DNA of 64,000 nucleotides, from the NCBI RefSeq assembly GCF_012027635.1, contig NZ_SNUS01000001.1, positions 744,001-808,000 on the forward strand, written 5' to 3'. The position numbers were made by a program, and so were the translations under genes. This DNA is from Thermococcus sp. 21S9. Its GTDB lineage: Archaea > Methanobacteriota_B > Thermococci > Thermococcales > Thermococcaceae. The notes beneath the pieces were generated by a model. That model had not been told where the DNA came from and did no database searches. It was given only the letters and a program-made list of their open reading frames with translations. Below are positions 2,273 through 56,342 of the stretch, one piece after another; position 1 is the first letter of the stretch, and every line of letters starts with the position of its first letter.

Positions 2273-2430
2273 TGTTTTATCTGCCGTATACTCAAGTTAA
2301 AAATGTTTGTATTCCGTTATATTTAACATTGCATTTGCATAGGCTAAGTTAGAATTTAAACCGTAGTTTTTATAAGAGACTTTTGTATTAGAATCCCAAT
2401 GTTAATAAGAAGGATTTTAGGGTGAATCCC
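2273..2430. promoter_or_regulatory. Divergent intergenic promoter region
   Basis: An A+T-rich spacer between the minus-strand GT2 gene and the plus-strand sugar-nucleotide genes. A TATA-like TTTTTATAAG lies at about 2368-2377, roughly 55-60 nt before the ATG at 2431. For the minus strand, A+T-rich tracts just upstream of 2272 could serve as TATA. No repeat or RNA gene was seen. Confidence 0.5.
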
Positions 2431-4602: not shown

Positions 4603-4608
4603 GGAACA

Positions 4609-5520: not shown

Positions 5521-5537
5521 CAACTTAAAAGGGGGAC

Positions 5538-6914: not shown

Positions 6915-7766
6915 GCCTATCGTTTTTAGATATCTGATTAATCCCTGCCTCCAGTCCGGCATCCTTAGGCCGAGCTCATGGAGTCTTCTGTTTTCCAGTG
7001 CTGAGAACCTTGGTCTCTTCGCGAGTCTATTCAGCTCGCTCGACTTTATCGGCTCTATCTCAACATCCCAGCCGAGAATATCAAATATTGTTTTGGTGAA
7101 CTCATACCATGAGCAATATCCCTCGTTCACCATGTGATAGATTCCATACGGAGGTTCACGCCCCAAAAGTTTCGCAAGGGTCTCTGCAACATCTCGGGTA
7201 TGGGTGGGGCTCATAACCTGGTCTACTACTACCCTAAGATTCTCCCCGTGCTTTGCCTTTTCGATGACCCAGTTTACGAAGTTCCCGCCTTTTCCTCTTG
7301 CCCCCGCTTTACCATAGAGGCTTGCCACCCTTATGATGTAGTGTCTGTGTGAGTAGTTCCGTGTGAAAACTTCGCCTGCAAGCTTACTCGTTCCGTAGAC
7401 ATTTATGGGGTTTGGGGCATCTTTTTCGATGTAGGGGCTTCCTTTTTTCCCGTCGAAGACATAGTCTGTGCTAATGTAAACATTTACTGCGTTTATCTCA
7501 TCCGCAATCCTTGCAACGTTCAGCGCGCCTATCGCGTTGACGGCGAAAGCTTTCTCTGGGTAGACCTCGGCATCGTCCACTCGAACATAGGCGGCGGTGT
7601 TTACAATTATGTCAGGTTTAACCTCCTTTAAAATTCGCAGGCTCTCAGCAACGGCAACATCAAGGTCTTTATGGGTTAAAGGAATAACATCAAAGCCTTT
7701 CTTCTTGAAAACTTCTGCAAGGTCACTTCCAAGCTGGCCGTTTGCCCCTATGATTGCAACCCTCAT
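6906..7766 (-). CDS. rfbD: dTDP-4-dehydrorhamnose reductase
   Basis: 286 residues, last enzyme of dTDP-L-rhamnose synthesis (NADPH-dependent reduction). Seen: GxxGxxG cofactor loop GANGQLGSDLAE, VNTAAYVRVDDAE, STDYVFDG, the YGTSKLAGE catalytic Y-x3-K and RVASLYG. GAGGTGAT lies 3 nt before ATG. It ends a minus-strand run rfbA-rfbB-rfbC-rfbD with gaps or overlaps of about 10 nt, as expected for one operon. Confidence 0.96.
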   Translation of the reverse strand: MRVAIIGANGQLGSDLAEVFKKKGFDVIPLTHKDLDVAVAESLRILKEVKPDIIVNTAAYVRVDDAEVYPEKAFAVNAIGALNVARIADEINAVNVYISTDYVFDGKKGSPYIEKDAPNPINVYGTSKLAGEVFTRNYSHRHYIIRVASLYGKAGARGKGGNFVNWVIEKAKHGENLRVVVDQVMSPTHTRDVAETLAKLLGREPPYGIYHMVNEGYCSWYEFTKTIFDILGWDVEIEPIKSSELNRLAKRPRFSALENRRLHELGLRMPDWRQGLIRYLKTIGLP

Positions 7767-7775
7767 AGCATCACC

Positions 7776-8333
7776 TCAGAACACCCAGCCCTTCTTGATG
7801 GCCTCTTTCAGCGTCGGCCATTTTTTGTCCTTCTCTGAGACTATTGGTTCATCTACTGGCCAGTCTATGCCAAGTTCGGGGTCGTTCCAGATAATACCTC
7901 CCTCGTGGTCGGGAGCGTAAACGTTGTCCACCTTGTAAACAACATCTGCAACATCGCTTAGCACGACAAAACCGTGGGCGAAGCCCCGGGGAATATAGAG
8001 TTGCCATTTGTTGAACTCTGATAAGATAACTCCCACCCACTTTCCAAACGTTGGTGAGTTCTTTCGTAAGTCAACGACCACATCGTAGATTACTCCCCTA
8101 ACGACCCGCACTATTTTCGCTTGAGCGTAGGGTTCGCGCTGGAAGTGGAGACCTCTTAACACGCCGTAACGAGAGTGGGACTGGTTATCTTGAACGAACT
8201 CTTCATGAATACCTGCCCGCTCAAAGTCCGGCTTTTTGTATGTCTCCATGAAAAAGCCCCTTTCATCACCAAAGACTTTCGGTTTGATTAGTATAACGTC
8301 TTGGATTTCAAGCCTCTCGAACTCGAAGGGCAT
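7776..8333 (-). CDS. rfbC: dTDP-4-dehydrorhamnose 3,5-epimerase
   Basis: 185-residue cupin epimerase. Signatures: DERGFFMETYK, VQDNQSHSRYGVLRGLHFQ (catalytic His), VVRGVIYDVVVDLR and IPRGFAHGFVVLSD. I start at ATG 8333, which has GGTGGTGA just upstream and directly follows the rfbB stop; a GTG at 8342 would lie inside rfbB. The enzyme takes dTDP-4-keto-6-deoxyglucose, so it competes with the FdtA-like isomerase encoded at 2.4 kb for the same intermediate. Confidence 0.96.
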   Translation of the reverse strand: MPFEFERLEIQDVILIKPKVFGDERGFFMETYKKPDFERAGIHEEFVQDNQSHSRYGVLRGLHFQREPYAQAKIVRVVRGVIYDVVVDLRKNSPTFGKWVGVILSEFNKWQLYIPRGFAHGFVVLSDVADVVYKVDNVYAPDHEGGIIWNDPELGIDWPVDEPIVSEKDKKWPTLKEAIKKGWVF

Positions 8334-8335
8334 CC

Positions 8336-9337
8336 TCACCACCCCAGCTTCCAGGGCGTCGGGTGGAGGACCCTCTCATTGACCAGCGGTCTCCACCATT
8401 CCTCGTTTTTCAAGTACCACTCAACCGTCAGATGTATGCCCTCCTCGAAGCTCACTTTTGGACGCCACTTTAAGTCCCTCGTTATTTTCCATGAATCAAG
8501 GGAGTACCTCAAATCGTGTCCGGGCCTGTCTTCAACGAACTCTATGAGTGATTCATCCTTGCCGAGAAGCCTGAGAATTGTCTTGACGACTTCAAGGTTC
8601 GTTTTCTCCTCTCCGGCAGAAACGTTGTAGATTTCCCTTGGTTCGCCCTTCAGTAGAACTCTCTCGACGGCTCTCACATGGTCCTCCACGTAAATCCAGT
8701 CCCTCACATTCTGGCCAGTTCCATAGATTGGAACTTTGAGCCCCATGCTCGCCCTTATTATCGTCTTTGGTATGAGCTTCTCTGGAAACTGGTATGGGCC
8801 GTAGTTGTTGGTACAGCGGGTTATTGATGCGTTCAGATTGTAAGTTCTCGCCCACCCAAGGACTAAGGAATCGGCCGCCGCCTTCGTCGCTGAGTATGGG
8901 GATGAGGGCTTCAGCGCGTCCTCTTCTCTAAATGAACCCTTCAGTATGTCTCCGTAGACCTCATCTGTGCTTATATGGACGAGTCTCACCTCTGGGTTCT
9001 CCTTTCGTATTGCCTCAAGGATTGTATAAACCCCAATCACATTGCTTCTGAGGAAGTGGTCGGGACTTGAGATGCTCCTGTCCACGTGGCTTTCAGCGGC
9101 AAAGTTTACGACAGCGTCAACCTGCTTTACGAGCCCTTTCATGAGTTCGAAGTCCGCTATATCACCCTTCACAAAGGTGTAGCGAGGGTCGTCTTCAAGG
9201 TCTCTTAGGTTGGCTGGGTTCGAACCATAGCCGAGTTTGTCAAGGTTGATTATCTCCCAGTCAGAATGCTCTTTAAGGACGTAGCGGATGAAGTTGCTTC
9301 CTATGAAGCCCATTCCGCCGGTTACAAGGAGTTTCAT
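8336..9337 (-). CDS. rfbB: dTDP-glucose 4,6-dehydratase
   Basis: 333-residue extended SDR enzyme making dTDP-4-keto-6-deoxyglucose, the branch point for L-rhamnose and for the amino-dideoxy sugar genes at 2.4-4.6 kb. Seen: GGMGFIGSNFIRYVL cofactor loop, FAAESHVDRSI, STDEVYGDI, YSATKAAADSL with catalytic Tyr and Lys, and NNYGPYQFPEKLIP. GGTGGA lies before ATG 9337. Length is typical. Confidence 0.97.
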   Translation of the reverse strand: MKLLVTGGMGFIGSNFIRYVLKEHSDWEIINLDKLGYGSNPANLRDLEDDPRYTFVKGDIADFELMKGLVKQVDAVVNFAAESHVDRSISSPDHFLRSNVIGVYTILEAIRKENPEVRLVHISTDEVYGDILKGSFREEDALKPSSPYSATKAAADSLVLGWARTYNLNASITRCTNNYGPYQFPEKLIPKTIIRASMGLKVPIYGTGQNVRDWIYVEDHVRAVERVLLKGEPREIYNVSAGEEKTNLEVVKTILRLLGKDESLIEFVEDRPGHDLRYSLDSWKITRDLKWRPKVSFEEGIHLTVEWYLKNEEWWRPLVNERVLHPTPWKLGW

Positions 9338-9346
9338 CCTTCCACC

Positions 9347-10405
9347 TCACAGTATTATCCTTGAATTGTCACCAACGACGAGTTTCTTTCCAAGGGGGTG
9401 TGTGTTGCCCTTTAGAATCTTAACACCCCTGCCGATGACGCTTTCGACGATTCTGCCTGCGTTCCGGATTTCACTGTCCGGGAGGACTATTGAGTCTTCT
9501 ATCTCTGTGTTCTCGATGATGACGTTGTCACCGATGCTGGTGTACGGCCCTATGTATGAGTTCCTGATTCTGACGTTTCTACCGATTATTACGGGACCCT
9601 TTATGACCGTGTTCTCGTCTATCTCGCTTCCCTCCCCGATGACGACCCTTCCATGAATCCTTGCCTTGGTTTGGACTCTCACGTCTGGTTTCAAGTCGTC
9701 GAGTATGAGCCGGTTGGCGTCAAGCAAATCCTCTGGCTTCCCCGTGTCCTTCCACCAACCCGTGACCTTGGTCCATCCTACCCTGTAGCCGTGGTCGATG
9801 AGCCACTGGATGGCGTCGGTAATCTCAAGCTCGTTTCTCCATGAGGGCTTTATGTTCCTCACCGCCTCGTGGATTACGGGCTTGAAGAAGTATATCCCGA
9901 CCAGTGCGAGGTTGCTCGGCGGGTTCTTTGGCTTCTCAACGAGCCTCTTAATAGTTTTTCCATCCTCACTCAGCTCGGCGACGCCAAACTGCCTTGGGTC
10001 TGGGACCTCAGTTAGGAGTATGCTCGCGTCGTAGTTTCCCTTCTCGAAGTGTTCCCTATGTCTGACTATGCCCTCCCTCAAGATGTTGTCGCCAAGATAC
10101 ATGACAAAGTCATCGTCGCCCAGAAAGTCCCTTGCAACGAGGATTGCGTGGGCCAGACCCTTCGGGTCACCCTGATAGATGAACTCTATCTCCGCGTCCC
10201 AATCCCTGCTCATGACGGTCTCTTTTACCTGCTCGGCATTTGGACCGACTATTATTCCAATTTCGTGTATGCCCGCCTCGATAACATCCTCTATTGCGTA
10301 GAATAAGACGGGTTTGTTTGCAACTGGGATTAGTTGCTTTTGCTGGGAGTAGGTTAAGGGTCTAAGTCGGGTTCCATGGCCTCCGGATAGGATTAGCGCC
10401 TTCAT
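9347..10405 (-). CDS. rfbA: Glucose-1-phosphate thymidylyltransferase (archaeal long form)
   Basis: 352 residues. The N-terminal nucleotidyltransferase domain has LSGGHGTRLRPLTYSQQK (G-x-G-T-R-L), the YLGDNIL metal-site Asp region, and VEKP. From about residue 250 a left-handed beta-helix follows (INGKG-like hexapeptides such as VIIGRNVRIRNSYIG), the longer architecture common in archaea and actinobacteria. It catalyses dTTP + glucose-1-P to dTDP-glucose. First gene of the rfb group; AGGAGG-like site before ATG; 22 nt downstream of the flippase gene. Confidence 0.94.
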   Translation of the reverse strand: MKALILSGGHGTRLRPLTYSQQKQLIPVANKPVLFYAIEDVIEAGIHEIGIIVGPNAEQVKETVMSRDWDAEIEFIYQGDPKGLAHAILVARDFLGDDDFVMYLGDNILREGIVRHREHFEKGNYDASILLTEVPDPRQFGVAELSEDGKTIKRLVEKPKNPPSNLALVGIYFFKPVIHEAVRNIKPSWRNELEITDAIQWLIDHGYRVGWTKVTGWWKDTGKPEDLLDANRLILDDLKPDVRVQTKARIHGRVVIGEGSEIDENTVIKGPVIIGRNVRIRNSYIGPYTSIGDNVIIENTEIEDSIVLPDSEIRNAGRIVESVIGRGVKILKGNTHPLGKKLVVGDNSRIIL

Positions 10406-10427
10406 ATTTATCCCTCCTATCGTGTCA

Positions 10428-11963
10428 TTACTTCCTCTCTAACTTCTCCATTAAAGTTATTACTCTTTCGAGGTTAAGATTAAATCTCTCGGACGCTATT
10501 CTAATTATCTCTATATCCCTCTGCTCGAAAGTCCCGGTAATAAGACATAGAGCATAGAATCCAATTGTAAATACTCCTGTCAAGCCCAAGGCTATGAATA
10601 TGTTGCTAGTTGATGTTGTTAAAGCCACTGCAGTTATGACCGTGCCCAGAATGAGTGTTTTTGTGTAACTGGCGCTAAATGGGGAGATTCCATACCTTCT
10701 CAGCACACTCAGTTTGTAAACGTTCGCAACAACGTATGCAGAGGCAGTTGCTATGGAGGCACCCATCATGCCATACAAAGGAATTAATGTCGTGTTTAAA
10801 ACAACGTTAATTATAGCTCCAAGTAGATTCCCTGTCATCTCCTTTGAGGGTTTTCCGATGGATATTAACGTTAACCCATTCGGGCCAACTATGGAATGCA
10901 CTAAGAACCCTGCAGATAGCACCATCAACGGTTTCCAGGCCTCAACGTACTTAACTCCAAACAGTGCTGTTATTACGGCCTTTGGATATGTGAATAAGAG
11001 AAGGAAGAGGGGGAAAGTTAGGAGCAATATCCATTTTGTTATGGCACTATAAAATTCACTGATTTCTTGTACCCTGCCTTCAGTATAGAACCGGGTAACG
11101 ATGGGATTGTATATTACAGTCATTGCCGAGAGAAACACCGGGATGAACCTGGCCAGGGGGGCGGCGGCGTTGTATATTCCAACTATATCACTACTGAGAT
11201 AATGCCCCAACATCAAGGTGTCCGTCCAGGTCATTACAAGGTTTATTATCCCCGACATCATTAATGGAATCGAAAACAGCACGATTGCCCTTGCCATTCT
11301 CCCTGAGAAATATGGCTTTCCAGGGAGTATTCCTGCAACTTTTAGGTCGCGTATCACAAGTGTTAATGTTATGCCCTGAGATATAACGTAGGCACCAACG
11401 ATATAGTGAATGGGCATGTTGAGAATGACTCCGGTTAGTGCAATAAGTAACGTGTACAGGAGGGGTGCGATGATTTTTCCATAAATAGTGTACTCCCTGA
11501 CCCTCTTGAACCCCTGACTTATTGAAATCAGCACGCTTAGTGTTGCCGAGATTGGAAGCGAAATGGCGAGGATTTCAAGCAGTTCCTTTAATAATCCATC
11601 TCCCCCAATGTACTTGGGTAATGCCCCCCTAAGAACCTCAAGCACAACCATTCCAAGTGTTGATGTTATGAGAATCAGCGTTAAGGCTGTTCCGATTAAT
11701 TCCTTGACTTTCTCTGGTTTTTTTGACAAGAAATATGAAACCTGCCTCTGCATTCCCATCGGAAAGCCCATCATGACGACAATCAGAGTTATGGTGAACA
11801 CCGTGAAGGCAAGGTTATAGACTCCGTACTGTTCGGGCCCGTAAACCCTCCCCACTATAGCCCTGGTCAGAAAACCAAATATCGCCGAGGCTATGAGCCC
11901 GATGAGGGCTATTGCTCCCCCCCTTGCGGCCCTCCCCAGTTCCCCTGCTACCTCGTCTGGCAT
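10428..11963 (-). CDS. Wzx-type polysaccharide flippase (MATE/MVF family)
   Basis: About 511 residues with 12-14 hydrophobic segments. The N-terminus (RAARGGAIALIGLIASAIFG, then RVYGPEQYGVYNLAFTVF) is the standard start of the O-antigen transporter family. It would flip lipid-linked oligosaccharide across the membrane. An upstream ATG at 11996 would overlap the preceding gene by 29 nt; I prefer ATG 11963, 4 nt after that gene's stop. Its place between rfbA and a sulfatase-like gene fits export of the glycan built by this locus. Confidence 0.9.
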   Translation of the reverse strand: MPDEVAGELGRAARGGAIALIGLIASAIFGFLTRAIVGRVYGPEQYGVYNLAFTVFTITLIVVMMGFPMGMQRQVSYFLSKKPEKVKELIGTALTLILITSTLGMVVLEVLRGALPKYIGGDGLLKELLEILAISLPISATLSVLISISQGFKRVREYTIYGKIIAPLLYTLLIALTGVILNMPIHYIVGAYVISQGITLTLVIRDLKVAGILPGKPYFSGRMARAIVLFSIPLMMSGIINLVMTWTDTLMLGHYLSSDIVGIYNAAAPLARFIPVFLSAMTVIYNPIVTRFYTEGRVQEISEFYSAITKWILLLTFPLFLLLFTYPKAVITALFGVKYVEAWKPLMVLSAGFLVHSIVGPNGLTLISIGKPSKEMTGNLLGAIINVVLNTTLIPLYGMMGASIATASAYVVANVYKLSVLRRYGISPFSASYTKTLILGTVITAVALTTSTSNIFIALGLTGVFTIGFYALCLITGTFEQRDIEIIRIASERFNLNLERVITLMEKLERK

Positions 11964-11967
11964 ATCC

Positions 11968-13323
11968 TCAGCGCCCCAGTTTGTTTCTAACCTCATCCCT
12001 CGCGAGTATTGAGAGAAGTTTTTTGCGCATGCTCTCAGTGATATCTGTGTCTTTTAAAGGATTGCTTTCCTGGGGGTCTTTATTCGTGATAAACACCCAC
12101 TCGACACTGTCATCTGGAGCATAAAGAAATTTTAATCCTTTTACTATGAAGGCCTTTTTCTCATATCCATATCCTGTGGCTTCGCTTATTATAAATTGTC
12201 TGGGTTTTTCATCAAGAGGATGTCCATCGAGTTTGTATGGTACCTCTGTCTTCCATAATTTAAGTATTGTTGGGAACAAGTCGATTAGGGGCCTGTTGTT
12301 TAGCTTTAAGCTACCCTTTACTGCCCCATCCACTGCTAGGGGTACCTCAATGATTTCATTGAACACATTATGGCCGTGACCGACACCATACACGCCCCTG
12401 GGGTCGTAGAAGTTCTTGGCTTCAAGTTCCGCATGCTCCCAGAACTCTTCGCCATGGTCTGCAGTAAACACTATTATTGTATTGTCGAGGAGACCCCTTC
12501 TCTCAAGCTCCCTGTAGATTTTCTCGAAGAGATAGTCGACGTATCTAATTGTGTTGTCATACAGTAGAATTTTATTTTCTTTGAACCTCTCAAATGCTTT
12601 TCCACGCTGTTCATGCGGTTTTTGGAATGCCCAGATTTCAATATTTTTCAGGTTTTCAACCTTTCCAAAGTAGTTCCTGAACCTTCTGGGAGGGTTTAAT
12701 GGTTGATGAGTATCCCCAAGATGAATGTATGCAAAAAAGTTCTTGTTTCCTATTTTATCGAGCCATTTGAAAAAATCGGATACAATGACCTCCCCTATGG
12801 TCTCTCCGGGATACAGCCGAACCGGCGCCCGTCCTTTCATTGGGAATGTGGCCACAGCTATCGATGTCGCGAAGTAAACTTCATAGTCGTTCAACCCGGC
12901 TATCTCAGTCAGGGTGATGAATCGCTTCCGTATCCCTTTGATAGCACGAGGGTTGTCGAAGTTTCTCACCTTTGAGTGGATGTATGCTCCGTGATTGTGA
13001 GGGTACATCCCAGTCATTATCGATGCCACTGAGGGATGTGTCCATGGGGCACCTGCAATGGCTTTTCCGGAGTTCCTTAATGAAGATAAAAACGGTGTTG
13101 TGTCTCTTTTGTATCCTTTTAGACTTGTGTTTTTAAATCGAAGACAGTCTGCAGTTACTAGGATAACGTTAAGGGGGTCATTTATCTCCACGTTGATGTT
13201 TTGAATCTTTCTAAGTCTCTGCTCGAACTCACGTCGGTGTTGGTGTTCCTTCTTTAGCCGATACAGAGGATATAGCATCCGCTTTAGTGGTTTAATCCTG
13301 GAGACCATCTCGGTTATGGGCAT
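11968..13323 (-). CDS. Sulfatase-like alkaline-phosphatase-superfamily protein with Thr nucleophile
   Basis: 451 residues. Motifs: NVILVTADCLRFKN (metal Asp, with Asp-Cys instead of Asp-x-x-R), GAPWTHPSVASIMTGMYP and FTADHGEEFWEHAEL. T95 stands where a sulfatase has Cys or Ser, and the CxPSR Arg is absent, as in the paralogue at 5538. It is therefore probably a phosphatase, phosphodiesterase or phosphotransferase and not a sulfatase, whatever automatic annotation says. No signal peptide or membrane helix is evident; a basic segment with MLYPLYRLKK occupies residues 16-25. It lies 4 nt below the TauE/SafE gene and next to the flippase, all on the minus strand. Confidence 0.87.
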   Translation of the reverse strand: MPITEMVSRIKPLKRMLYPLYRLKKEHQHRREFEQRLRKIQNINVEINDPLNVILVTADCLRFKNTSLKGYKRDTTPFLSSLRNSGKAIAGAPWTHPSVASIMTGMYPHNHGAYIHSKVRNFDNPRAIKGIRKRFITLTEIAGLNDYEVYFATSIAVATFPMKGRAPVRLYPGETIGEVIVSDFFKWLDKIGNKNFFAYIHLGDTHQPLNPPRRFRNYFGKVENLKNIEIWAFQKPHEQRGKAFERFKENKILLYDNTIRYVDYLFEKIYRELERRGLLDNTIIVFTADHGEEFWEHAELEAKNFYDPRGVYGVGHGHNVFNEIIEVPLAVDGAVKGSLKLNNRPLIDLFPTILKLWKTEVPYKLDGHPLDEKPRQFIISEATGYGYEKKAFIVKGLKFLYAPDDSVEWVFITNKDPQESNPLKDTDITESMRKKLLSILARDEVRNKLGR

Positions 13324-13327
13324 GATA

Positions 13328-14068
13328 TCACCCTGAATGTGTCAGTATAACAAGCCCTATTATAAGGATTATGACGTTAATGACCCTCTTAAGCCTCTCC
13401 TTATCAACTTTAGCGTTCACGTGAGTGCCGAGGTAAACGCCGGGAATGGTTCCCGCTATGAGCGTCCCGGCTAGGGCGTAATCGACGCTCCCCATCTCGG
13501 CGTAGCTCAGGAAGCTCATCGCCGAAAGGACCAGCCCGTAGAGTATCGTCGTTCCTACAACTTCGCGCGGGTTAATCCGGGCAACGTTCATGAGCGTGAA
13601 GCTGATTATAACGCCCGCTCCAACCGAGGTGAACTGAACCGTCAGTCCAACAATGAAGCCGAGCAGGTAGACGTAGGCCCACCTCGGCCTTAGGGAAAGC
13701 CTAATCTCCCCTTTGAGCAGGCTCAGAACGGCCGTAACGACCAGAATGATGCCGAGAATGAGGGTTAAATACCGGTTCAGGACGTCCTTGGGGATGTGCC
13801 TCACGGCGTAACCGCCAATCAAAACCGCTGGAACGCTTCCAGCCAAAAGGCGGAGCGCTATGTCCTTCCTCACGTGGCCCTTCTTTCCGTGGAAGAGAAC
13901 GCCGAAGACCCTCGTAACAGTTGCGTAGAGCAAATCGGTTCCTACTGCCGTTAAAGGCTCGACACCAAGGAAAATCAGGGAGGGAGTCATGAGCGAGCCC
14001 CCGCCCACGCCGGTCAGCCCTATGAGAAACCCCACAACGAATCCGAGGCCGACGAAGGCGGGGTTCAT
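13328..14068 (-). CDS. TauE/SafE family sulfite/sulfonate-type permease
   Basis: 246-residue membrane protein with about eight helices. The family hallmark is two similar halves, each opening with a glycine-rich loop: FLIGLTGVGGGSLMTPSLIF near the N-terminus and FIVGLTVQFTSVGAGVIISF in the second half. Family members move sulfite, sulfonates, sulfoacetate or related anions. Position is informative: 9 nt downstream of cysC and in one run with sat, so sulfate or sulfite movement is a reasonable inference. Direction of transport is unknown. Confidence 0.9.
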   Translation of the reverse strand: MNPAFVGLGFVVGFLIGLTGVGGGSLMTPSLIFLGVEPLTAVGTDLLYATVTRVFGVLFHGKKGHVRKDIALRLLAGSVPAVLIGGYAVRHIPKDVLNRYLTLILGIILVVTAVLSLLKGEIRLSLRPRWAYVYLLGFIVGLTVQFTSVGAGVIISFTLMNVARINPREVVGTTILYGLVLSAMSFLSYAEMGSVDYALAGTLIAGTIPGVYLGTHVNAKVDKERLKRVINVIILIIGLVILTHSG

Positions 14069-46404: not shown

Positions 46405-46468
46405 ACGTCAAAACCTGCCGGGATAACCTTTTAACTTCTCCCTCCTCTCTTCCGAAAAGGTGAGAGGA

Positions 46469-47776
46469 ATGAAGGTTGAGCGCGTTAAGGGAACGAGGGA
46501 TTTCCTGCCCGAGGAGATGGCGAAGAGGAGATGGGTCTTCGAGAGAATTCGCGAAACCTTTGAGCGCTACAACTTCCACGAGGTTCTAACTCCAACCTTT
46601 GAGTACACCGAACTCTTCAAGCTCAGGAGCGGTGAGGAGGTTGTAAAACAGCTCTACGCCTTCCTCGACAAGGGCGGGAGGGACATCTCGCTCCGCCCGG
46701 ACATGACGTCGAGCGTCGCGAGGCTCTACGTTTCAGCCTTCCAGACGGCCCCGAAGCCAATCAAGTGGTACTACATGGCTAACATGTTCCGCTATGAGGA
46801 ACCTCAGAGCGGTCGCTACCGCGAGTTCTGGCAGGCCGGCGTTGAGCTCATCGGGAGCGATAAGGTTGAGGCCGATGCCGAAGTCATAGCGCTCTTCACC
46901 GAGAGCTACCTCGCGACCGGTTTGGAGGACTTCACCGTCAACATCGGCGACAGGGTTCTGCTCGACGAGTTCGCCAGAATGCTCGGCGTCAAAGACGACA
47001 TCGGGCTCATGAGGCTCATAGACAAGAAGGACAAGCTTACCAGGGAGGAGTTCGTAAATGCTTTGAAGGACTTCGGGCTGAGCGATGAAGGGGTCGAGAA
47101 GGTTCTCTCGCTGGTTGAAATCAAGGGCGAGCCGAACGAGGTTCTCCCGAAGGCGGAGGAGCTGTTCACGAGCGAGGAAGCTAAAGCCGAGATAAAGCGC
47201 CTCTACGAGCTCGTTGATTTGCTCGACGCCTACGGTGTCTCGAAATGGATTAGGATTGACCTCGGAATAGCGAGGGGCTTCGACTACTACACGAGCGTCG
47301 TCTTTGAGGCGATAGCGCCGAACGACCTCGGAATCGGCTCGATTGGCGGTGGCGGTCGTTACGACAACCTCATCGAGGTCTTTGGCGGAAAGCCGACCCC
47401 GGCGACGGGCTTCGCCATCGGTGTCGAGAGGCTCATTCCAATACTTGAGTGGAAAGGCCTGATTCCGGAAATCAAGCTCAGGCCCGACGTTTACGTGATT
47501 CCCATTGGCAAGGAAGTCGAGCTCAGGAAGACGGCCGTCGAGGTGGTATCTTCCCTCAGGAGGGCGGGCGTTAGGGCCGACGTCGAGCTGACCGGAAGGA
47601 AGCTGAGAAAGGCCCTCGACTACGCGGGCAGGCTCAACGTGCCGTACGTGGTTCTCATCGGGAAGAGGGACCTCGAGAACGGCAACGTCACGATAAGGGA
47701 CATGGAAACGGGCGAGCAGAGGGTTGTGAAAAAAGAAGGCCTTGTCGAGGAGCTACTCGGGCTCCTCGGCCTCTGA
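46469..47776 (+). CDS. hisS: Histidyl-tRNA synthetase
   Basis: 435 residues from ATG 46469 (AGGTGAGAGG upstream). Class II motifs: RVKGTRDFLPEEM, motif 2 MFRYEEPQSGRYREFWQAGVEL, the His-specific loop GIARGFDYYTSVVFEA, motif 3 GFAIGVERLIPIL, and a C-terminal anticodon-binding domain (DVYVIPIGKEVE to the end). Full length and catalytic segments argue for HisS and not the HisZ paralogue. Confidence 0.95.
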   Translation: MKVERVKGTRDFLPEEMAKRRWVFERIRETFERYNFHEVLTPTFEYTELFKLRSGEEVVKQLYAFLDKGGRDISLRPDMTSSVARLYVSAFQTAPKPIKWYYMANMFRYEEPQSGRYREFWQAGVELIGSDKVEADAEVIALFTESYLATGLEDFTVNIGDRVLLDEFARMLGVKDDIGLMRLIDKKDKLTREEFVNALKDFGLSDEGVEKVLSLVEIKGEPNEVLPKAEELFTSEEAKAEIKRLYELVDLLDAYGVSKWIRIDLGIARGFDYYTSVVFEAIAPNDLGIGSIGGGGRYDNLIEVFGGKPTPATGFAIGVERLIPILEWKGLIPEIKLRPDVYVIPIGKEVELRKTAVEVVSSLRRAGVRADVELTGRKLRKALDYAGRLNVPYVVLIGKRDLENGNVTIRDMETGEQRVVKKEGLVEELLGLLGL

Positions 47777-47778
47777 TT

Positions 47779-48324
47779 TTAATCAACCCAGTGGTGGTCC
47801 TCGTAGACGGCAACGTCCGGGCCGTAGACCGGGTAGGCAGTCACGACCTCGAAGTAAACGTATCCATCGTACTCCTCTTCCTGGATTACCGCCTTCATCT
47901 CGTCTATTCCATAGTAGGACGCCTCGTAACCCGGCAGGTCGTAGGTGAGCACCACCCTGTTCCCGTCGAACTCGGGGTTGCCGTACTCTATCGTCTCCTC
48001 GATTAGGTAAACAACGTCATAGCCGTCCATGGTTTCGGGAAGCTTCCTGCCCGCCACGTACTGGCCGAGCGGGTAGAAGGTCGTTTTCTCCTTGTAGTCC
48101 CTCTCGTAGCCGAGGACGTGCCTGTCCCAGACGTGCTCCTGCGCCCAGCTCGGGAAGTAGACGGGGTAACCGTAGAAGTCAACGTTGAAGTAATATGTCG
48201 CCGCGTAGGTGAATTCCTGGTGGTCGGTGGAGATGCTCGTCGCCTGTGCCGGAAGGGCCATGACGGCCAGAAGAACCGTCGCGATTAAAACCGCCAGCTT
48301 CCGCAACGACACCACCGCACGCAA
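47779..48324 (-). CDS. Secreted or anchored hypothetical protein
   Basis: About 175-181 residues. A hydrophobic signal segment (LAVLIATVLLAVMALPAQA) with a good A-x-A cleavage site precedes an acidic, tyrosine-rich mature part (HQEFTYAATYYFNVDFYGYP, AVIQEEEYDGYVYFEVVTA). The start codon is not ATG: TTG 48324, a GTG at 48315 or 48312, or TTG 48306 just after GGTGGT; I favour the last. No family recognised. Convergent with hisS, 2 nt apart. Confidence 0.72.
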   Translation of the reverse strand: MRAVVSLRKLAVLIATVLLAVMALPAQATSISTDHQEFTYAATYYFNVDFYGYPVYFPSWAQEHVWDRHVLGYERDYKEKTTFYPLGQYVAGRKLPETMDGYDVVYLIEETIEYGNPEFDGNRVVLTYDLPGYEASYYGIDEMKAVIQEEEYDGYVYFEVVTAYPVYGPDVAVYEDHHWVD

Positions 48325-48582: not shown

Positions 48583-48834
48583 ATGAAGAGGCGCCTCTGC
48601 CGTGAGTACATCGAGGAGATTGAGAGGCTCGAGCGCTCGATTCGCGAGCTTGAGGAGGAGATAATAGAGCTGAGGATGCAGTTGAAGCTCAAGGTTGATG
48701 AAGCCAACAGGCTTGCCATCGAGAACGCGAGCCTGAGGCACAAGCTTGAGATGCAGAGGAAGACCTACCAGCGTATGGTCGAACTGCTGAAGAAGATGAA
48801 GTTCCCCATAATTTTTCTCCCTGAGGACGAGTGA
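48583..48834 (+). CDS. Small coiled-coil protein
   Basis: 83 residues. From residue 8 to 72 it is a continuous charged heptad helix (EEIERLERSIRELEEEIIEL, LRHKLEMQRKTYQRMVELL), ending KMKFPIIFLPEDE. No family recognised and no ribosome site of the usual kind before ATG 48583, because the C/D sRNA fills the leader. Codon use is typical of the genome, which supports coding. Confidence 0.65.
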   Translation: MKRRLCREYIEEIERLERSIRELEEEIIELRMQLKLKVDEANRLAIENASLRHKLEMQRKTYQRMVELLKKMKFPIIFLPEDE

Positions 48835-49114: not shown

Positions 49115-49387
49115 ATGAGGCGTTCAAGGGTTGAAATTATTGCGGACATCCTTGAGTCAGCCAATGGCACAGGTGCGACGAAAACCCAGATTGTTTACAG
49201 GGCGAACCTGAACTTTAAGCTCGCCACGAACTACATAAAGTACCTCCTGAGAAAAGGTTACCTCGTTGAGGCCATTGAGGGGAACAGACGTATATATCGC
49301 GTTACCGACAAAGGTAGGACTTTCCTACGAAGCCTTTCAACGATTTATCGTGAGCTCGGTGATTTTGATTCCTTCGATGGTTTTTGA
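49115..49387 (+). CDS. Winged-helix regulator (HTH_45/ArnR1-like)
   Basis: 90 residues. RSRVEIIADILESAN, ATKTQIVYRANLNFKLATNY (recognition helix region) and LLRKGYLVEAIEGNRRIYRV (wing) with TDKGRTFLRSLSTIY are typical of small archaeal HTH_45 regulators. GGGGG precedes ATG. It is immediately upstream of, and co-directional with, the TasA-like cluster, so it is the likely regulator of those genes; inference. Confidence 0.85.
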   Translation: MRRSRVEIIADILESANGTGATKTQIVYRANLNFKLATNYIKYLLRKGYLVEAIEGNRRIYRVTDKGRTFLRSLSTIYRELGDFDSFDGF

Positions 49388-49433
49388 TTTTTTCTCTTTC
49401 AAACCTCCGGGGCCTGCCCCCGTCGTTTCTTTC

Positions 49434-49448
49434 CGTAACAAAGTTACG
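49434..49448 (+). promoter_or_regulatory. Inverted repeat CGTAAC-AAA-GTTACG upstream of the TasA-like operon
   Basis: Perfect 6+6 bp repeat with 3-bp spacer, about 45 bp before the TATA (GATATTATAAGC, 49491-49502). A further GTTACG half-site lies at 49465-49470. Similar GTTACC occurs before the winged-helix gene. Position upstream of TATA would suit an activator. Confidence 0.55.
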
Positions 49449-49522
49449 AAGTATATCTCAGAATGTTACGTTCTAAACGCGATTTCTCGGGATATTATAA
49501 GCTCAAATGATAACATATAGTA

Positions 49523-49537
49523 CGGGCATATTGCCCG
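49523..49537 (+). promoter_or_regulatory. Hairpin abutting the TasA-like gene's ribosome site
   Basis: CGGGCA-TAT-TGCCCG, a perfect G+C-rich 6-bp stem whose last base is the first G of the GGAGGTG ribosome site (49537-49543) before ATG 49550. It may stabilise the mRNA 5' end or tune translation of this probably abundant secreted protein. Confidence 0.5.
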
Positions 49538-49549
49538 GAGGTGCATGGA

Positions 49550-50128
49550 ATGAAGAGCGGAATCTTGGCTTTGTTGGTTGTTGGTGTTGTACTGTTTGGA
49601 CTCGGGGCAGGAACCTGGGCCTACTTCAGCGACACAGAGTCCAGCACTGGGAACTACATAACGGCTGACATCCTGAATCTTAAAGTCAGTCCGGATAACA
49701 GCACCTGGTATGATGGAACCAACGTTCCCTCGAACATTGATTTTGGAAAGGTTTACCCCGGTTGGAGCGGTAGCGATGACGTTTACGTTATGAACGAAGG
49801 CGGTCTTCCGGGTGAGCTCTACCTCTACATGAACTACTCAATGGCCGATAACATACACCCCGAATCCGAGACCGACAACGGGCAGACCCTTGCGGATGTT
49901 ATCTACGTCAAGATTTACTACAACGATAACCTCGTCTGGGAGGGCTACCTCAAGGACTGGAATTATGACAACTCCGGAAACAAGCTTGACCTTGGCCCAC
50001 TCGACGGCGGAAAGACTGGAAAGATAACTGTCGAGGCTTCAATTGACTACAACAACGCCGGGAACGACATCCAGGGTGATAAGCTCACCTTCGACGTTCA
50101 CCTCTACCTCCAGCAGGTGCAGGGGTGA
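49550..50128 (+). CDS. TasA/camelysin-like fibre protein with SipW-type signal (1)
   Basis: 192 residues from ATG 49550 (GGAGGTG 6 nt upstream). MKSGILALLVVGVVLFGLGA is the hydrophobic signal, followed by GTWAYFSDTESSTGNYITAD, the SipW-dependent signature; cleavage between Ala and Tyr would leave YFSDTE as the mature N-terminus. The mature part is a beta-rich acidic domain (LNLKVSPDNSTWYDG, VYPGWSGSDDVYVMNEGGLP, LDLGPLDGGKTGKITVEASI). TasA in Bacillus and AbpA in Pyrobaculum polymerise by donor-strand exchange using this N-terminus (family knowledge). Likely the major fibre subunit because it is first and best-expressed by context. Confidence 0.88.
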   Translation: MKSGILALLVVGVVLFGLGAGTWAYFSDTESSTGNYITADILNLKVSPDNSTWYDGTNVPSNIDFGKVYPGWSGSDDVYVMNEGGLPGELYLYMNYSMADNIHPESETDNGQTLADVIYVKIYYNDNLVWEGYLKDWNYDNSGNKLDLGPLDGGKTGKITVEASIDYNNAGNDIQGDKLTFDVHLYLQQVQG

Positions 50129-50159
50129 TTCCCCCTAACTTTTTATTGGGGTGACAGGG

Positions 50160-50918
50160 ATGCGCAGTGCCTTCTTTGCCCTCTTCCTGGCGGGGCTCGT
50201 TGTAGTAGCCGTCGGTTACGGCACCTGGGCCTATTTCAGCGACGTTGAGGTCAGTGCGGGGAACTACGTAACTGCGGATACCCTCGACCTCGTGCTTACA
50301 GACCATACCAACAGTGCGAATGCCCAGTGGGGATACTTCTACATTGCCCCTGGAAGGGTTCCCGGTGTTAACGGTGGCTACGTGGAGGGAGATAGGGGAA
50401 TACACATCTACAATAACGGCACTTATCCAAACACGACGGTTGAGGTATGGTTTACGTTCAAGTGCTACGAGGACGATGATGGTAACTACACCGATGGTCT
50501 TCACCCGGGGCCAGAGTCGGATACACTCCAGACTAATGAGAGCGCCTATATGATGCTGAAGGAGATAACCGTGAACACCATGGAGTACACGAACAGCCAC
50601 ACCCTTCGCTTAATCTATGACACAAAGTTGACCGATACAGGATACGAGCATCTCGCACCCGAGCTGAAAAGCCAGTTCAGCCCGGGACAGGAGATTACCC
50701 TCGACGACCTGTCTAGGATAAAGTTCGTGGGTCTGCCTGGTCCACAGCCTCTCTACGGTACCCTCGATATACACGATAGCCAGTATCTAAACGAGCCCAA
50801 TACCCAGCTGTCCATGGACGGATTCGGGGCAAAGATGCTCAACGTTAGCCAGGACTACTGGCAGGGTGACGTCTGTATAATGACCGTCCATGTGAGGTTA
50901 GTGCAGTCGGAGCCGTGA
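50160..50918 (+). CDS. TasA/camelysin-like fibre protein with SipW-type signal (2)
   Basis: 252 residues from ATG 50160 (GGGGTGA 5 nt upstream). Signal MRSAFFALFLAGLVVVAVGY then GTWAYFSDVEVSAGNYVTAD, nearly the same junction as protein 1. The mature domain is longer, with VEVWFTFKCYEDDDGNYTDG, YMMLKEITVNTMEYTNSHTL and DLSRIKFVGLPGPQPLYG. Possibly a minor or tip/base subunit; role inferred. 31 nt after gene 1. Confidence 0.86.
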   Translation: MRSAFFALFLAGLVVVAVGYGTWAYFSDVEVSAGNYVTADTLDLVLTDHTNSANAQWGYFYIAPGRVPGVNGGYVEGDRGIHIYNNGTYPNTTVEVWFTFKCYEDDDGNYTDGLHPGPESDTLQTNESAYMMLKEITVNTMEYTNSHTLRLIYDTKLTDTGYEHLAPELKSQFSPGQEITLDDLSRIKFVGLPGPQPLYGTLDIHDSQYLNEPNTQLSMDGFGAKMLNVSQDYWQGDVCIMTVHVRLVQSEP

Positions 50919-50923
50919 GCCCC

Positions 50924-51175
50924 ATGCGGGTCCTCTACGCTATCTTTTTCTTTGTGGCGGTTACCTTCGCCCTCTACCTGTCGGCGATGTACATGGTGGG
51001 CAACACAAGTCCCCACGCATCCACGGTACTTGAGAACATGACGCAGAACGTGACAACTTCCCCCAGGGAGATGACGATGGCACTGGGAACGATTTCGTTC
51101 CTTGCGAGGGTTGGTCTCGCCGTGGTGTTCCTCAGTATGGCCGTCTACGTAATCTCGGAGCTGGTGATGAAATGA
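50924..51175 (+). CDS. Small two-helix membrane protein of the fibre cluster
   Basis: 83 residues from ATG 50924 (a GTG at 50915 overlaps the previous stop). Helix 1 VLYAIFFFVAVTFALYLSAMY, an outside loop with three N-x-S/T sequons (NTSPHAST, ENMTQNVTTS), helix 2 ISFLARVGLAVVFLSMAVYV. No family recognised. Tight spacing with its neighbours suggests a component of fibre assembly or anchoring. Confidence 0.75.
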   Translation: MRVLYAIFFFVAVTFALYLSAMYMVGNTSPHASTVLENMTQNVTTSPREMTMALGTISFLARVGLAVVFLSMAVYVISELVMK

Positions 51176-51639
51176 TGAGGTCGCTCGTGGTCTGGCTTGC
51201 AATCGTTTCAATTTTCGCCTATTCGTATTTCGGCTCACTCGCTTACTTCTCAGATTCCTCTTCAATAAGCATGTCCCTTGAAATCGAGCCGAACCCGGTT
51301 CAAATCAGCTGTGGCAACGTCACGCTCCTTCACTGTCACTGCCGTTACTACCTCCTCTCCGGCCTGGTCCTCAACGCCACCGACAACGTCACGTTCGAAG
51401 GGATATACTTCAAGAGTGATGGCTGGGTCCTGAGAGGGCTTATCGTTGATAATACTGAAATCTCCGCTGAGAACACCTTCTACATCCCCCTGAACATCAG
51501 CCTTACCCCCGGGCTCCACAACGTTTCCTTAATCCTTTACAAAACAGGCCATCACCGTGAGGGAGTTATGTATATCGTGCTCTACATCAACGGAGAGGAG
51601 TATCCCTTGTCCATAGTTCCGGGATGGTGTCACAGATGA
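51172..51639 (+). CDS. Short SipW-signal protein of the fibre cluster (TasA-related, divergent)
   Basis: 155 residues. LVVWLAIVSIFAYSYFGSLA then YFSDSSSISMSLEIEPNPVQ resembles the A-YFSD junction of the two larger proteins. The mature part is beta-rich with four cysteines near its start (ISCGNVTLLHCHCRYYLL) and one near the end (VPGWCHR), and several sequons. ATGA overlap with the preceding gene. Possibly a capping or minor subunit; similarity beyond the N-terminus is not obvious. Confidence 0.75.
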   Translation: MMRSLVVWLAIVSIFAYSYFGSLAYFSDSSSISMSLEIEPNPVQISCGNVTLLHCHCRYYLLSGLVLNATDNVTFEGIYFKSDGWVLRGLIVDNTEISAENTFYIPLNISLTPGLHNVSLILYKTGHHREGVMYIVLYINGEEYPLSIVPGWCHR

Positions 51640-52550
51640 GAAGGCTTATCTCCTTTGCGGTCATCCTCGTGCTTCTCTTGGCCTTTTCAAGGCTCAGGAC
51701 GCTGACGCCACTCGTTGTTCTGAGTGGGAGCATGGAGCCTTACTTCAATCCCGGTGACATGGTCTTAATCGAGCCGGTGAACGCCTCCGGTGTTCAAATC
51801 GGGGACGTGGTGGCCTTCCACCCGACGTGGGCTAAGGGGAAAGAGGCGGGCAATACACTGTACACCCACCGGGTCGTCGGTGTAATTCGAAACTCGACCG
51901 GTCTGTACTTCGTTACGAAGGGAGACAACAACAAAGAAGATGACCCCCAGCCGGTCCCCGCCCAGAGCGTCGTCGGGAAGGTCACCATCGTCCTTCCTTA
52001 TCTCGGTTATATGACAAGGCACAACCCCGACCGGCGGGCGCTGTTTGTGGTTTACGTATTCTTCATTCTGCTTCCGGGAGTTTACCTGCTTGTTTCGCTC
52101 GTTAGAGATTTCTTTGAGCGCCCTATTGTCTCCAGGAGAAAGGAGCGCTTTCGGCTGATTTCCTCAAGGTTCACCCGTTCAGTCTCGCTAAAGAAAGCCC
52201 TTGGAGTCTTTGCAGTTTCTTTCATCTCCCTTGCGGTTCTCATGGCACCCCAACTTAGCTCAGATGACGGCTGGGTTTCCAACAATGGAAAACTGCCGGT
52301 GCTCTTAATCTCCGGTGGGGTTCCCGGATACGTCTACCTTCATCCCGGTGACTCCTGCGCCTGCAACTACACCCACGCAGTAAACGCCGTCCTCCCGGTT
52401 CAGTGGCTTGTCCTTCTCTCCGGGATGCCCCTTTTTCCCTGGTCGCTCGTCCTTCTTCTGGCCATGCTCTTAACGCTCACACTGTATCCCCTCTGGACGT
52501 CGAAGTTCCCGAACGTGGAGGTGAAAAGGCATGGAACCCGCTTTATTTGA
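51636..52550 (+). CDS. Signal peptidase I, SipW/ER type, with C-terminal membrane extension
   Basis: 304 residues from ATG 51636 (ATGA overlap). After helix 1, VVLSGSMEPYFNPGDMVLI gives the nucleophile S32, and GNTLYTHRVVGV gives H78 as general base, the Ser/His dyad of SipW and ER-type enzymes in place of Ser/Lys; VTKGDNNKEDDPQPV is box E. A second helix (FVVYVFFILLPGVYLLVSLV) ends the usual protein. About 160 extra residues follow, with two or three more helices and an external loop holding HPGDSCACNYTH. Dedicated processing of the neighbouring SipW-type signals is the obvious role. Confidence 0.9.
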   Translation: MRRLISFAVILVLLLAFSRLRTLTPLVVLSGSMEPYFNPGDMVLIEPVNASGVQIGDVVAFHPTWAKGKEAGNTLYTHRVVGVIRNSTGLYFVTKGDNNKEDDPQPVPAQSVVGKVTIVLPYLGYMTRHNPDRRALFVVYVFFILLPGVYLLVSLVRDFFERPIVSRRKERFRLISSRFTRSVSLKKALGVFAVSFISLAVLMAPQLSSDDGWVSNNGKLPVLLISGGVPGYVYLHPGDSCACNYTHAVNAVLPVQWLVLLSGMPLFPWSLVLLLAMLLTLTLYPLWTSKFPNVEVKRHGTRFI

Positions 52551-53553
52551 GGCCCTCCTTAAAATTAGGCGGAACTGGCTGGCCGTTCTTCTCGTTTCCC
52601 TGCTACTCTCCGGGGCGCTGGCGTACGCCTACACTGTAACCCCTTCCGTCGTCCGTGAAACCTCAAAGGTCTCCAAGCCCCTCTACCGCTGGGGTGGTGT
52701 CCTCAACGCGTCCGCCGTCGTTGCAAAAGAGAACCCCATCTGGTCTTTGGGGGAGAGGGTTAGCCTTCCCATTTACCCCCTCGACGTCACCCCCGTCCTT
52801 GAGCCGACGCTGACCTGGGAGATTTACGCCAAATCAGCCAACGTCAACGTCACCGCCCATATGAAGGTTCTCTATTACGTCTCCTACAACGGCGAAAGGC
52901 TGTTTGAGAGGGTTTACAACGCCTCTTCGGCATCGGGCAGGAACAGAGTCGTTCTCTCAATCCCGGTCAACGTCTCCGATGTCGTTTCGAGGATTGAATC
53001 CGATGTGGCCTTTCTGAAGTTGCCCCGCTTTGAGAGCGGTATCGAGGTGAAGGGGGACTTCTCCTACTCTGGAACCGTCGAAGGAAGGCCCGTTTCGGGA
53101 AGCGGCTCCCTGAACGGAAACGTTAAGGTGTCCTACGGCTCGGTCTACACCTTCACCGGTGACGCCGTCAACGGCACGGGCACGTACACTGAAACCGTAA
53201 CCTTCACGAGGCCGGTCAACCGCGTAAAGCGCACACTGCTCCTCGGGGGCTCTGTCTTGGCCCTCGTCCTGGCCATTGTGGCGCTTGTGTTGAGGTTCCG
53301 CTTCAACCCCTCCCCCGATGAGGTGGAGAGGATGAAAGCCATGGCGGAGCTTAGACGGTACGGCAAGTGGATAAGCACTGGAAAGCTCCCTGAAAGCTAC
53401 GTCCACTCACCGCCCAAGGTGGAGTTCCCGAGCCTTGGCGACCTCGTTGAAACTGCCATTGACCACGGGAAGAGGGTAATCCATGACTCCGAAAGGGGAC
53501 TTTACTTCTTCGTGGACGGGGGAGTTCTCTACATCTTCTCTCCGAAATCCTAA
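52531..53553 (+). CDS. DUF5305 membrane-anchored protein
   Basis: 340 residues. Helix at 15-35 ([20 protein letters not shown]), a large external domain (residues 36-230) with many sequons and strand-rich repeats ([20 protein letters not shown]), helix [19 protein letters not shown], and an 80-residue cytoplasmic tail ([20 protein letters not shown]). This arrangement is that of DUF5305, frequently next to signal peptidase genes in archaea. Overlaps the peptidase gene by 20 nt. May anchor or chaperone the fibre subunits; inference. Confidence 0.83.
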
Positions 53554-53600
53554 CGAAAGCCTTTTTTACATCCCCTTTCAGTTACCCCCAGGTGAGAATT

Positions 53601-56342
53601 ATGAGCATGGACATGACCACGAGAATGTTTAAAGAGGAAGGCTGGATAAGGAAGCGGTGCCCCAAGTGTGGTAAATACTTCTGGACGCTCGACCCTGACA
53701 GGGAAACCTGTGGAGACCCGCCGTGTGACGAGTACCAGTTCATAGGAAAGCCCGGCATACCGAAGAAGTACACCCTCGACGAGATGCGCGAGAAGTTCCT
53801 GAGCTTCTTCGAAAAGCACGGCCACGGAAGGGTCAAGCGCTACCCGGTTCTTCCGCGCTGGAGGGACGACGTTCTTCTCGTCGGCGCTTCAATCATGGAC
53901 TTCCAGCCCTGGGTCATCAGCGGTGAGGCCGACCCGCCGGCGAACCCGCTCACGATAAGCCAGCCCTCGATTCGCTTCACTGACATTGACAACGTTGGAA
54001 TAACCGGCAGGCACTTCACGATTTTCGAGATGATGGCCCACCATGCCTTCAACTACCCGGGCAAGCCGATTTACTGGATGGACGAGACGGTTGAGCTCGC
54101 CTTCGAGTTCTTCACCAAGGAGCTGAATATGAAACCGGAAGACATAACCTTCAAGGAGAACCCCTGGGCAGGCGGAGGAAACGCCGGACCGGCGTTCGAG
54201 GTGCTCTACCGCGGTCTGGAAGTGGCAACGCTCGTCTTCATGCAGTACAAGAAAGCCCCCGAAAACGCCGACCCGAGCCAGGTCGTCGAGATAAAGGGCG
54301 ACTACTACGTCCCGATGGAGACGAGGGTCGTTGATACCGGCTACGGCCTTGAGAGGCTCGTCTGGATGAGCCACGGCACTCCAACGGCTTACGACGCCGT
54401 TCTCGGCTACGTAATCGAACCGCTCAAGAAGATGGCCGGCGTTGAAAAGATAGACGAGAGAATTCTCATGGAGAACTCCCGCCTCGCCGGAATGTTCGAC
54501 ATCGAGGACATGGGCGACTTAAGGTATCTCCGCGAGCAGGTGGCGAAGCGCGTTGGCATAACCGTCGAGGAGCTGGAGAAGGCCGTTAGGCCCTATGAGC
54601 TAATCTACGCGATAGCCGACCACACTAAGGCCTTAACTTTCATGCTCGCCGACGGCGTAATCCCGTCCAACGTCAAGGCCGGCTACCTCGCGAGGCTCCT
54701 CATAAGGAAGAGCATAAGGCACCTCCGCGAGCTCGGTCTGGAGATTCCGCTCGCTGAAATCGTCGCCATGCACATAAAGGAACTCTCGCCGACGTTCCCC
54801 GAGTTCAAGGAGATGGAGGACGTTATACTCGACATAATCAACGTTGAGGAGAAGCGCTACCACGAGACCCTCAGGCGCGGAAGCGACCTGGTGAAGCGCG
54901 AGATAGCCAAGCTCAAGAAGAAGGGCATCAACGAGCTCCCGCTCGAAAAGCTCATTCTCTTCTACGAGAGCCACGGTCTAACGCCAGAGATAGTGGCCGA
55001 GATTGCCCAGAGGGAGGGCATAAAGGTCGAGATTCCGGACAACTTCTACACGCTCGTTGCCAAGCAGGCCGAGAAGACCGAGAAGAAGACCGCCGCTGAG
55101 TACGTGGTGGACTTCGAGCTCGTTAAAGACCTGCCCGACACGAGGACGCTCTACTACGAGGACCCCTTCATGAAGGAGTTCGATGCGGAAGTCGTTAAGG
55201 TCATAGACGACTGGGTCGTGCTCAACCAGACGGCCTTCTATCCGGAGGGTGGCGGTCAGCCCTACGACACCGGAACGCTCGAGGTTAACGGCGAGGAGGT
55301 CAAGGTCACCAACGTCCAGAAGGTCGGGAAGGTAATCCTCCACCGCGTTGATAAACCGGAGCTCTTCAAGCCGGGCGTTAAGGTTCACGGAAAGCTTGAC
55401 TGGGACAGGAGAATCCAGCACATGCGCCACCACACGGGGACACACGTCCTCATGGGCGCGCTCGTCAGGGTCTTAGGAAAGCATGTCTGGCAGGCCGGTT
55501 CACAGCTCCACAAGGACTGGGCGAGGCTGGACATCTCCCACTACAAGCGCATAACCGAGGAGGAGCTCAGGGAGATAGAGCGCCTCGCCAACCGCGTCGT
55601 CATGGAGAACAGGAAGGTGACCTGGGAGTGGCTCCCGAGGACCGAGGCAGAGATGAAGTATGGGTTCAGGCTCTACCAGGGTGGAGTCGTCCCGGGAAGG
55701 GTCATCAGGGTGCTCAAGATAGAGGGTTGGGACGTCCAGGCCTGCGGTGGAACTCACCTGCCGAACACCGGGCTTATAGGTCCGATTAAGATTCTGAGAA
55801 CCGAGAGAATCCAGGACGGCGTTGAGAGGATAATCTTCGCGGCGGGAGAAGCGGCAATCGACTGGATGCAGGAAACGGAGAGACTGCTTAAGAAGACCGC
55901 TGAAATCTTCCGCGTCCCGCCGGAGAAGGTGCCTGAAACTGCTGAGCGCTTCTTCAACGAGTGGAAGGAAGCGAGGAAAGAGGTCGAGAAGCTCAGGAAA
56001 GAGCTGGCAAAGCTCCTCGTCTACGAGCTTGAGAACAAAGTCGAGAAAATCGGTGAGGTAGAGTACATCGGCGCGGTCGTTGAGGGCACGATGGAGGACC
56101 TCCGTGAAGCGGCGAACAGGCTCAGGAAGGAGAAGCGCGTCGTTGTCCTCATCAGCAGGGAGGGCCACTTCGTCGTTGCGGTCGGAGACGGTCTCGACCT
56201 CAAGGCCGGCGAGCTGGCGAAAATAATAACGAGCATCGCCGGCGGTGGCGGTGGCGGAAGGAAAGAACTCGCCCAGGGCAGGATAAAGAACCCGCTGAAG
56301 GCTGAGGAGGCGATAGGGGAGGTCAAGAAGAGGCTCGGTTAA
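53601..56342 (+). CDS. alaS: Alanyl-tRNA synthetase (archaeal type)
   Basis: 913 residues from ATG 53601 (GGTGA exactly 5 nt upstream). An archaeal N-terminal zinc-finger extension ([20 protein letters not shown]) comes before class II motifs ([40 protein letters not shown]). The editing domain has [11 protein letters not shown] and [10 protein letters not shown] zinc ligands; the C-terminal domain has the glycine-rich [15 protein letters not shown] (DHHA1). Complete. Confidence 0.97.

Follow-up and report, generated by a model that had tools for sequence, protein, structure and literature searches.

What does a cluster of seven genes, directly ahead of the AlaRS gene in a Thermococcus genome, build at the cell surface? 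The cluster lies at 49115-53553 of a 64-kb stretch of DNA from Thermococcus sp. 21S9 (G000:C1:744001-808000, referred to below as the window, whose numbering we use for all coordinates unless another locus is named) in a 1.92 Mb genome of the Thermococcales. Its open reading frames (ORFs) are all present on the + strand, tightly packed, and encode in order a winged-helix regulator, two TasA-like proteins which we call Fib1 and Fib2, a small protein with two membrane helices (TM2), a third protein with a SipW-type signal (Fib3), a signal peptidase and a DUF5305 protein, with intergenic gaps of 162, 31, 5, -4, -16 and -20 bp. From Fib1 through DUF5305 the genes look like a single transcript. We consider it likely that the cluster, as a regulated operon, encodes a thin extracellular fibre of the TasA and archaeal bundling-pilus type, with roles for the parts as proposed below; its product is probably an undescribed surface fibre of Thermococcus. 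A reading made earlier from the letters of the window (the sequence-only reading) had described a self-contained fibre cluster of co-directional genes and proposed a search for synteny across Thermococcales. This search found the seven genes in the same order directly before AlaRS in nine other genomes, one of them of another genus. The cluster seen in that reading is thus real and well conserved, and its kind was correctly named.

The TasA-like subunits

The central evidence comes from Fib1 (49550-50128, +), the probable major subunit. The best start is 49550, preceded by a ribosome-binding site GGAGGTG (49537-49543, +) that was read from the sequence and is kept in all aligned relatives, and cleavage is predicted after GTWA (residue 24). 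Fib1 passes the cut-offs both of the Pfam camelysin family PF12389 (27.4 bits, cut-off 22.5) and of the SipW-dependent signal model TIGR04088 (35.5 bits, cut-off 19). A profile of nine Fib1 sequences matched in the PDB the TasA fibre 8aur (E 1.4e-4) and the TasA monomer 5of1, and more weakly AbpX (E ~0.01). The TasA-type beta sandwich expected by the sequence-only reading was sought in a single-chain AlphaFold2 model made from a nine-sequence alignment: the core is all-beta and mostly confident, and the top two PDB entries in a fold search were 8aur (E 1e-4, probability 1.00) followed by 7ueg, the bundling pili of Pyrobaculum. The suggested relationship to TasA and bundling pili thus gains support from profile and fold alike, and, judged by sequence and model, Fib1 is a true TasA/camelysin relative. 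The TasA equivalog model NF046066 (cut-off 450 bits) is not reached, with 14.7 bits for Fib2 and no listing for Fib1.

Three residues, F26, P70 and Q189, are invariant in the Fib1 alignment and have as counterparts F29, P62 and Q232 of TasA; P70 and Q189 were matched directly in the profile alignment and F26 by its position after the common GTWA. In TasA fibres F29, Q232 and P62 of successive subunits make up the proline box, and conservation within the family is highest there (PMC10151520). Therefore, the residues kept in Fib1 are those needed between subunits.

Fib2 (50160-50918, +) also passes TIGR04088 (29.3 bits) and scores 17.9 bits with PF12389, under the cut-off. Comparison of the two profiles with hhalign (99.7%, E 8e-26) indicates that it is a longer paralogue of Fib1, and its invariant columns include two cysteines, C102 and C239. 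Both proteins carry the same GTWA/YFSD junction, in agreement with the A-YFSD junctions noticed earlier. In the entire genome they are the only proteins above the TIGR04088 cut-off, the weaker matches being Fib3 and one orphan, so the presence of SipW-signal proteins beside a SipW-like peptidase is not due to chance. Profile searches of the PDB with Fib2 and Fib3 gave no meaningful solved relative.

On these grounds we propose that Fib1, as the major subunit, and Fib2, as the second one, would be exported via Sec as membrane-held precursors, and that the dedicated Ser/His peptidase would cleave them after GTWA, freeing an N-terminal strand that begins with YFSD. Both steps are modelled on established SipW/TasA biology. 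The freed strand would then enter the neighbouring subunit and close the TasA-like F/P/Q interface, leading to donor-strand assembly of Fib1 and Fib2, as the homology and the interface residues suggest.

The alternative that survives best is that the TasA-like proteins do not polymerise, being camelysin-type surface proteins (attached to the S-layer or secreted as monomers, possibly metal-binding or proteolytic) which the peptidase only matures. Pfam names the family after a camelysin metallo-endopeptidase, and most Thermococcales carry a lone camelysin-like protein with no adjoining peptidase, so that the presence of the fold does not by itself point to a fibre operon. However, inspection of the Fib1 alignment revealed no conserved metalloprotease motif, the invariant residues of Fib1 correspond to those at the inter-protomer interface of TasA, and the presence of a dedicated peptidase and a third, TapA-like protein next to two subunits resembles fibre operons. 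We therefore regard this alternative as improbable. In the genome studied here the orphan camelysin/TasA-like protein (L045 6202-6795, -, at ~0.882 Mb) has a YFTD junction and sits beside a DUF1616 membrane protein; among 20 such loci checked in Thermococcales, DUF1616 is found within 1.5 kb at eight.

The peptidase, Fib3 and DUF5305

The peptidase gene (51624-52550, +) encodes a SipW-like signal peptidase of the archaeal/endoplasmic reticulum (ER) type, passing TIGR02228 (sigpep_I_arch) with 105.1 bits against a cut-off of 51.85. The Ser (SGSM) and His (YTHRV) motifs of the dedicated Ser/His enzyme proposed earlier are present in 15/15 aligned peptidases, and the protein also has a KGDNN motif. 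Four helices are predicted, two of them extra C-terminal ones with a short outer segment between them. Three other signal peptidases are encoded in the same genome, one of which belongs to a second DUF5305 cluster discussed below.

The stop of Fib3 (51172-51639, +) overlaps the start of the peptidase gene. In Bacillus, tapA overlaps sipW, and the cysteine-bearing TapA donates its N-terminus to start TasA filaments (PMC10151520). Fib3 resembles TapA in position, signal and cysteines: its signal region can be aligned with that of Fib1, and seven of nine orthologues match TIGR04088, while the window member itself scores 12.8 bits, under the cut-off. The paired cysteines ascribed to this protein from the letters alone call for a small correction: the window protein has four cysteines, and a single one of them is kept in all relatives. 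The protein also has an internal cysteine region. The TapA model TIGR04087 was matched weakly by two of nine orthologues (best E ~0.04) and not by the window member. Between Fib2 and Fib3 lies TM2 (50924-51175, +), 83 amino acids long with a membrane helix at either end according to hydropathy. An ORF of like plan occupies the same place in every relative with the full cluster, the ratio of nonsynonymous to synonymous substitution rates (dN/dS) is 0.14-0.15, and no counterpart was found in known systems.

DUF5305 (52531-53553, +) was assigned correctly from the start (PF17231, 112.2 bits against a cut-off of 29). Its AlphaFold2 model, with a predicted local distance difference test (pLDDT) score of 85, consists of a helix, an outer beta domain, a second helix and a cytoplasmic domain. 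A profile search of the PDB gave no meaningful solved relative, the matches from a fold search were all weak ones to beta domains (best E 2e-3), from which we do not read a function, and the literature library that was searched contained no paper on DUF5305. A search of genome contigs found a single locus, in a Thermococcus metagenome-assembled genome with a 94% identical DUF5305.

The setting of DUF5305 elsewhere is more informative. Most Thermococcales carry a second DUF5305 lineage, represented in the present genome by a cluster (L044 2608-7369, at ~0.90 Mb) of a helix-turn-helix (HTH) protein, two DUF1102 proteins, a 352-amino-acid SipW-like peptidase, an unassigned beta protein and DUF5305, and SipW-like genes also accompany this lineage at the other loci sampled. 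One genome (G051) has a minimal cassette of TasA-like protein, SipW-like peptidase and DUF5305. In another order of the class Thermococci a small secreted protein, a peptidase and DUF5305 occur together, and on three haloarchaeal plasmids signal peptidase I and DUF5305 lie within ~2 kb of each other with small secreted proteins alongside. One of the latter is TafE-like (107 of 155 bits); the Tat-fimbriae of haloarchaea, as cited in PMC12687288, are described as thin surface filaments. Peptidase, DUF5305 and small secreted protein thus form a recurrent archaeal module which extends beyond Thermococcus. The earlier view that four extra proteins are left unexplained therefore needs to be narrowed, with the peptidase and DUF5305 belonging to this module and Fib3 being TapA-like in position, signal and cysteines; it still applies to TM2.

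Gene order and topology lead us to suggest hypothetical roles for these proteins: Fib3, encoded beside the peptidase, may start or cap the fibre in a TapA-like manner, while a membrane base for cutting and first assembly may consist of TM2, the peptidase including its extra helices, and DUF5305, which would act as an anchor or as a partner in assembly. A wider generalisation, which we offer tentatively and consider possible rather than likely, is that a SipW-like peptidase with extra helices, DUF5305 and TM2 are a dedicated platform in the membrane for cutting, initiating and anchoring donor-strand fibres. Such a platform would be the equivalent, in archaea with a single membrane, of the chaperone-usher base, and would serve camelysin-like, DUF1102 and small secreted (near TafE) subunits across Thermococci and Halobacteria. 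To us the recurrent peptidase-DUF5305 module is the most interesting part of the finding. Little is understood of how TasA-like fibres begin and stay attached to the cell surface, and the cluster would connect DUF5305, a domain whose function is unknown, with fibre biogenesis in distantly related archaea. It also provides a concrete parts list in Thermococcus, for which genetic tools exist, and an operator and a regulator that can be tested.

The part of DUF5305 matched in haloarchaea, at 37-45% identity, is the cytoplasmic tail (residues 264-340, window 53319-53550), hinting at a conserved intracellular partner. This would fit a second alternative, in which DUF5305 would anchor a surface coat or a short structure for adhesion instead of a long bundling fibre, with Fib2 and Fib3 binding ligands and DUF5305 signalling contact inward; Fib2 and Fib3 do bear cysteines, and constraint within the cluster is lowest on Fib3. 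However, two full TasA-like subunits favour polymerisation, and we consider this explanation less probable still than that of non-polymerising surface proteins.

Regulation, history and the case against a fibre

The first gene of the cluster, in the window as in all nine relatives, encodes a winged-helix protein of the HTH_45/Sso10a family (49115-49387, +; 90 amino acids). The regulator named in the sequence-only reading is recognised by both PF14947 (80.4 bits, cut-off 25.5) and NF053610 (87 bits, cut-off 60) and is 57-96% identical across the nine relatives. Between it and Fib1, 100 bp upstream of the latter, is a candidate operator (49431-49451), an inverted repeat TTCCGTAAC-AAA-GTTACGAAG whose core CCGTAACNNNGTTNCG has one exact occurrence in the genome. 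The site is kept at the same position in near relatives, and several others have repeated GTTAC/GTAAC half-sites there. A candidate TATA box of the fibre transcript (atattataa, 49492-49500, +), also read from the sequence, lies between the operator and the ribosome site; an operator upstream of the TATA box suits an activator. The winged-helix protein may bind the inverted repeat and control the promoter ahead of Fib1. Two other candidates were dropped: a hairpin following Fib1, which could have reduced expression of the genes downstream, was no better than chance and not clearly kept in relatives, and a scan for sigma-70 promoters gave chance-level results with a model not applicable to archaea.

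The close form of Fib1 is present in 10/94 Thermococcales genomes, and three further genomes (G028, G050 and G084) retain remnants of the cluster in the corresponding position; in G084 a transposase-like ORF is inserted there. At locus L094 a transposase-like ORF (5674-6548) separates Fib3 from the peptidase in a cluster that has lost the winged-helix gene, Fib1 and Fib2, and in the same genome a coiled-coil ORF is fused to TM2. When the window was compared with its two nearest relatives, the pairwise dN/dS values that could be computed were 0.01-0.24, with the winged-helix gene lowest and Fib3 highest; between those two relatives Fib3 reaches 0.56 at low dS. Trees of peptidase plus DUF5305 and of AlaRS reject each other in the approximately unbiased (AU) test, so simple vertical descent of the cluster is rejected; the window type of peptidase plus DUF5305 groups with G022 and G078 on a branch that is very divergent. 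These data fit both exchange at the locus and old diverged alleles kept long together with repeated loss. That the cluster is a decaying relic from which this genome makes no product, as the patchy presence and the remnants might suggest, is very unlikely given seven open frames and the low dN/dS values.

Several observations nevertheless weigh against a fibre operon of the kind we propose. Foldseek TM-scores of the Fib1 model are modest (0.51 to 8aur), its pLDDT is 72, and residues 1-37, comprising the N-terminal donor region, are below 50. The peptidase scores 79.9 bits with the Bacillus SipW model NF046067, short of the cut-off of 190, Fib3 has no significant sequence link to TapA outside the signal region, and DUF5305 is a domain without known function or solved relative.

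The cluster is flanked by a coiled-coil ORF (48583-48834), 3' of HisRS (46460-47776), and by AlaRS (53592-56342). A neighbouring gene for a secreted protein of unknown function (47779-48324, -) has relatives in 22/61 Thermococcus genomes; we do not count it as part of the cluster, because it is not beside the cluster in relatives and sits elsewhere in other genomes, and it looks like an independent insertion. Farther away, most of the ~12 kb at 2001-14000 has a G+C content of 40-47%, compared with ~55% elsewhere, which suggests a foreign island.

Comparison with known systems

The closest parallel is tapA-sipW-tasA of Bacillus subtilis, with which the cluster shares a TasA-fold subunit with GTWA cleavage region, a SipW-type peptidase, the F/P/Q interface residues and a starter-like gene that overlaps the peptidase gene. 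It differs in having two TasA-like subunits, TM2, DUF5305 and a winged-helix regulator in the cluster, in the longer peptidase of ER/archaeal type, and in a third protein that is not TapA-homologous by sequence. Two camelysin-like proteins served by one dedicated peptidase are also found in sipW-calY1-bc_1280-calY2 of Bacillus cereus; this system is bacterial, its third protein is different and DUF5305 is not mentioned there (PMC10151520).

Among archaea, the bundling pili of Pyrobaculum, likewise from a hyperthermophile, provide the second best fold match and the weak profile match to AbpX, but the sequence is too distant for membership. The haloarchaeal Tat-fimbriae (Taf) are connected through the TafE-like protein in one of the clusters of signal peptidase I and DUF5305. 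The signals in the window, however, are of SipW type and not twin-arginine; no window protein matched the TafA, TafC or TafE models, and a search of the same genome found no TafE. In the genome itself, the L044 cluster has the same plan, with a regulator, two small secreted proteins, a peptidase, a third beta protein and DUF5305. Its subunits are DUF1102 proteins instead of camelysin-like ones, and its DUF5305 lineage occurs widely in Thermococcales, whereas the window type is patchy.

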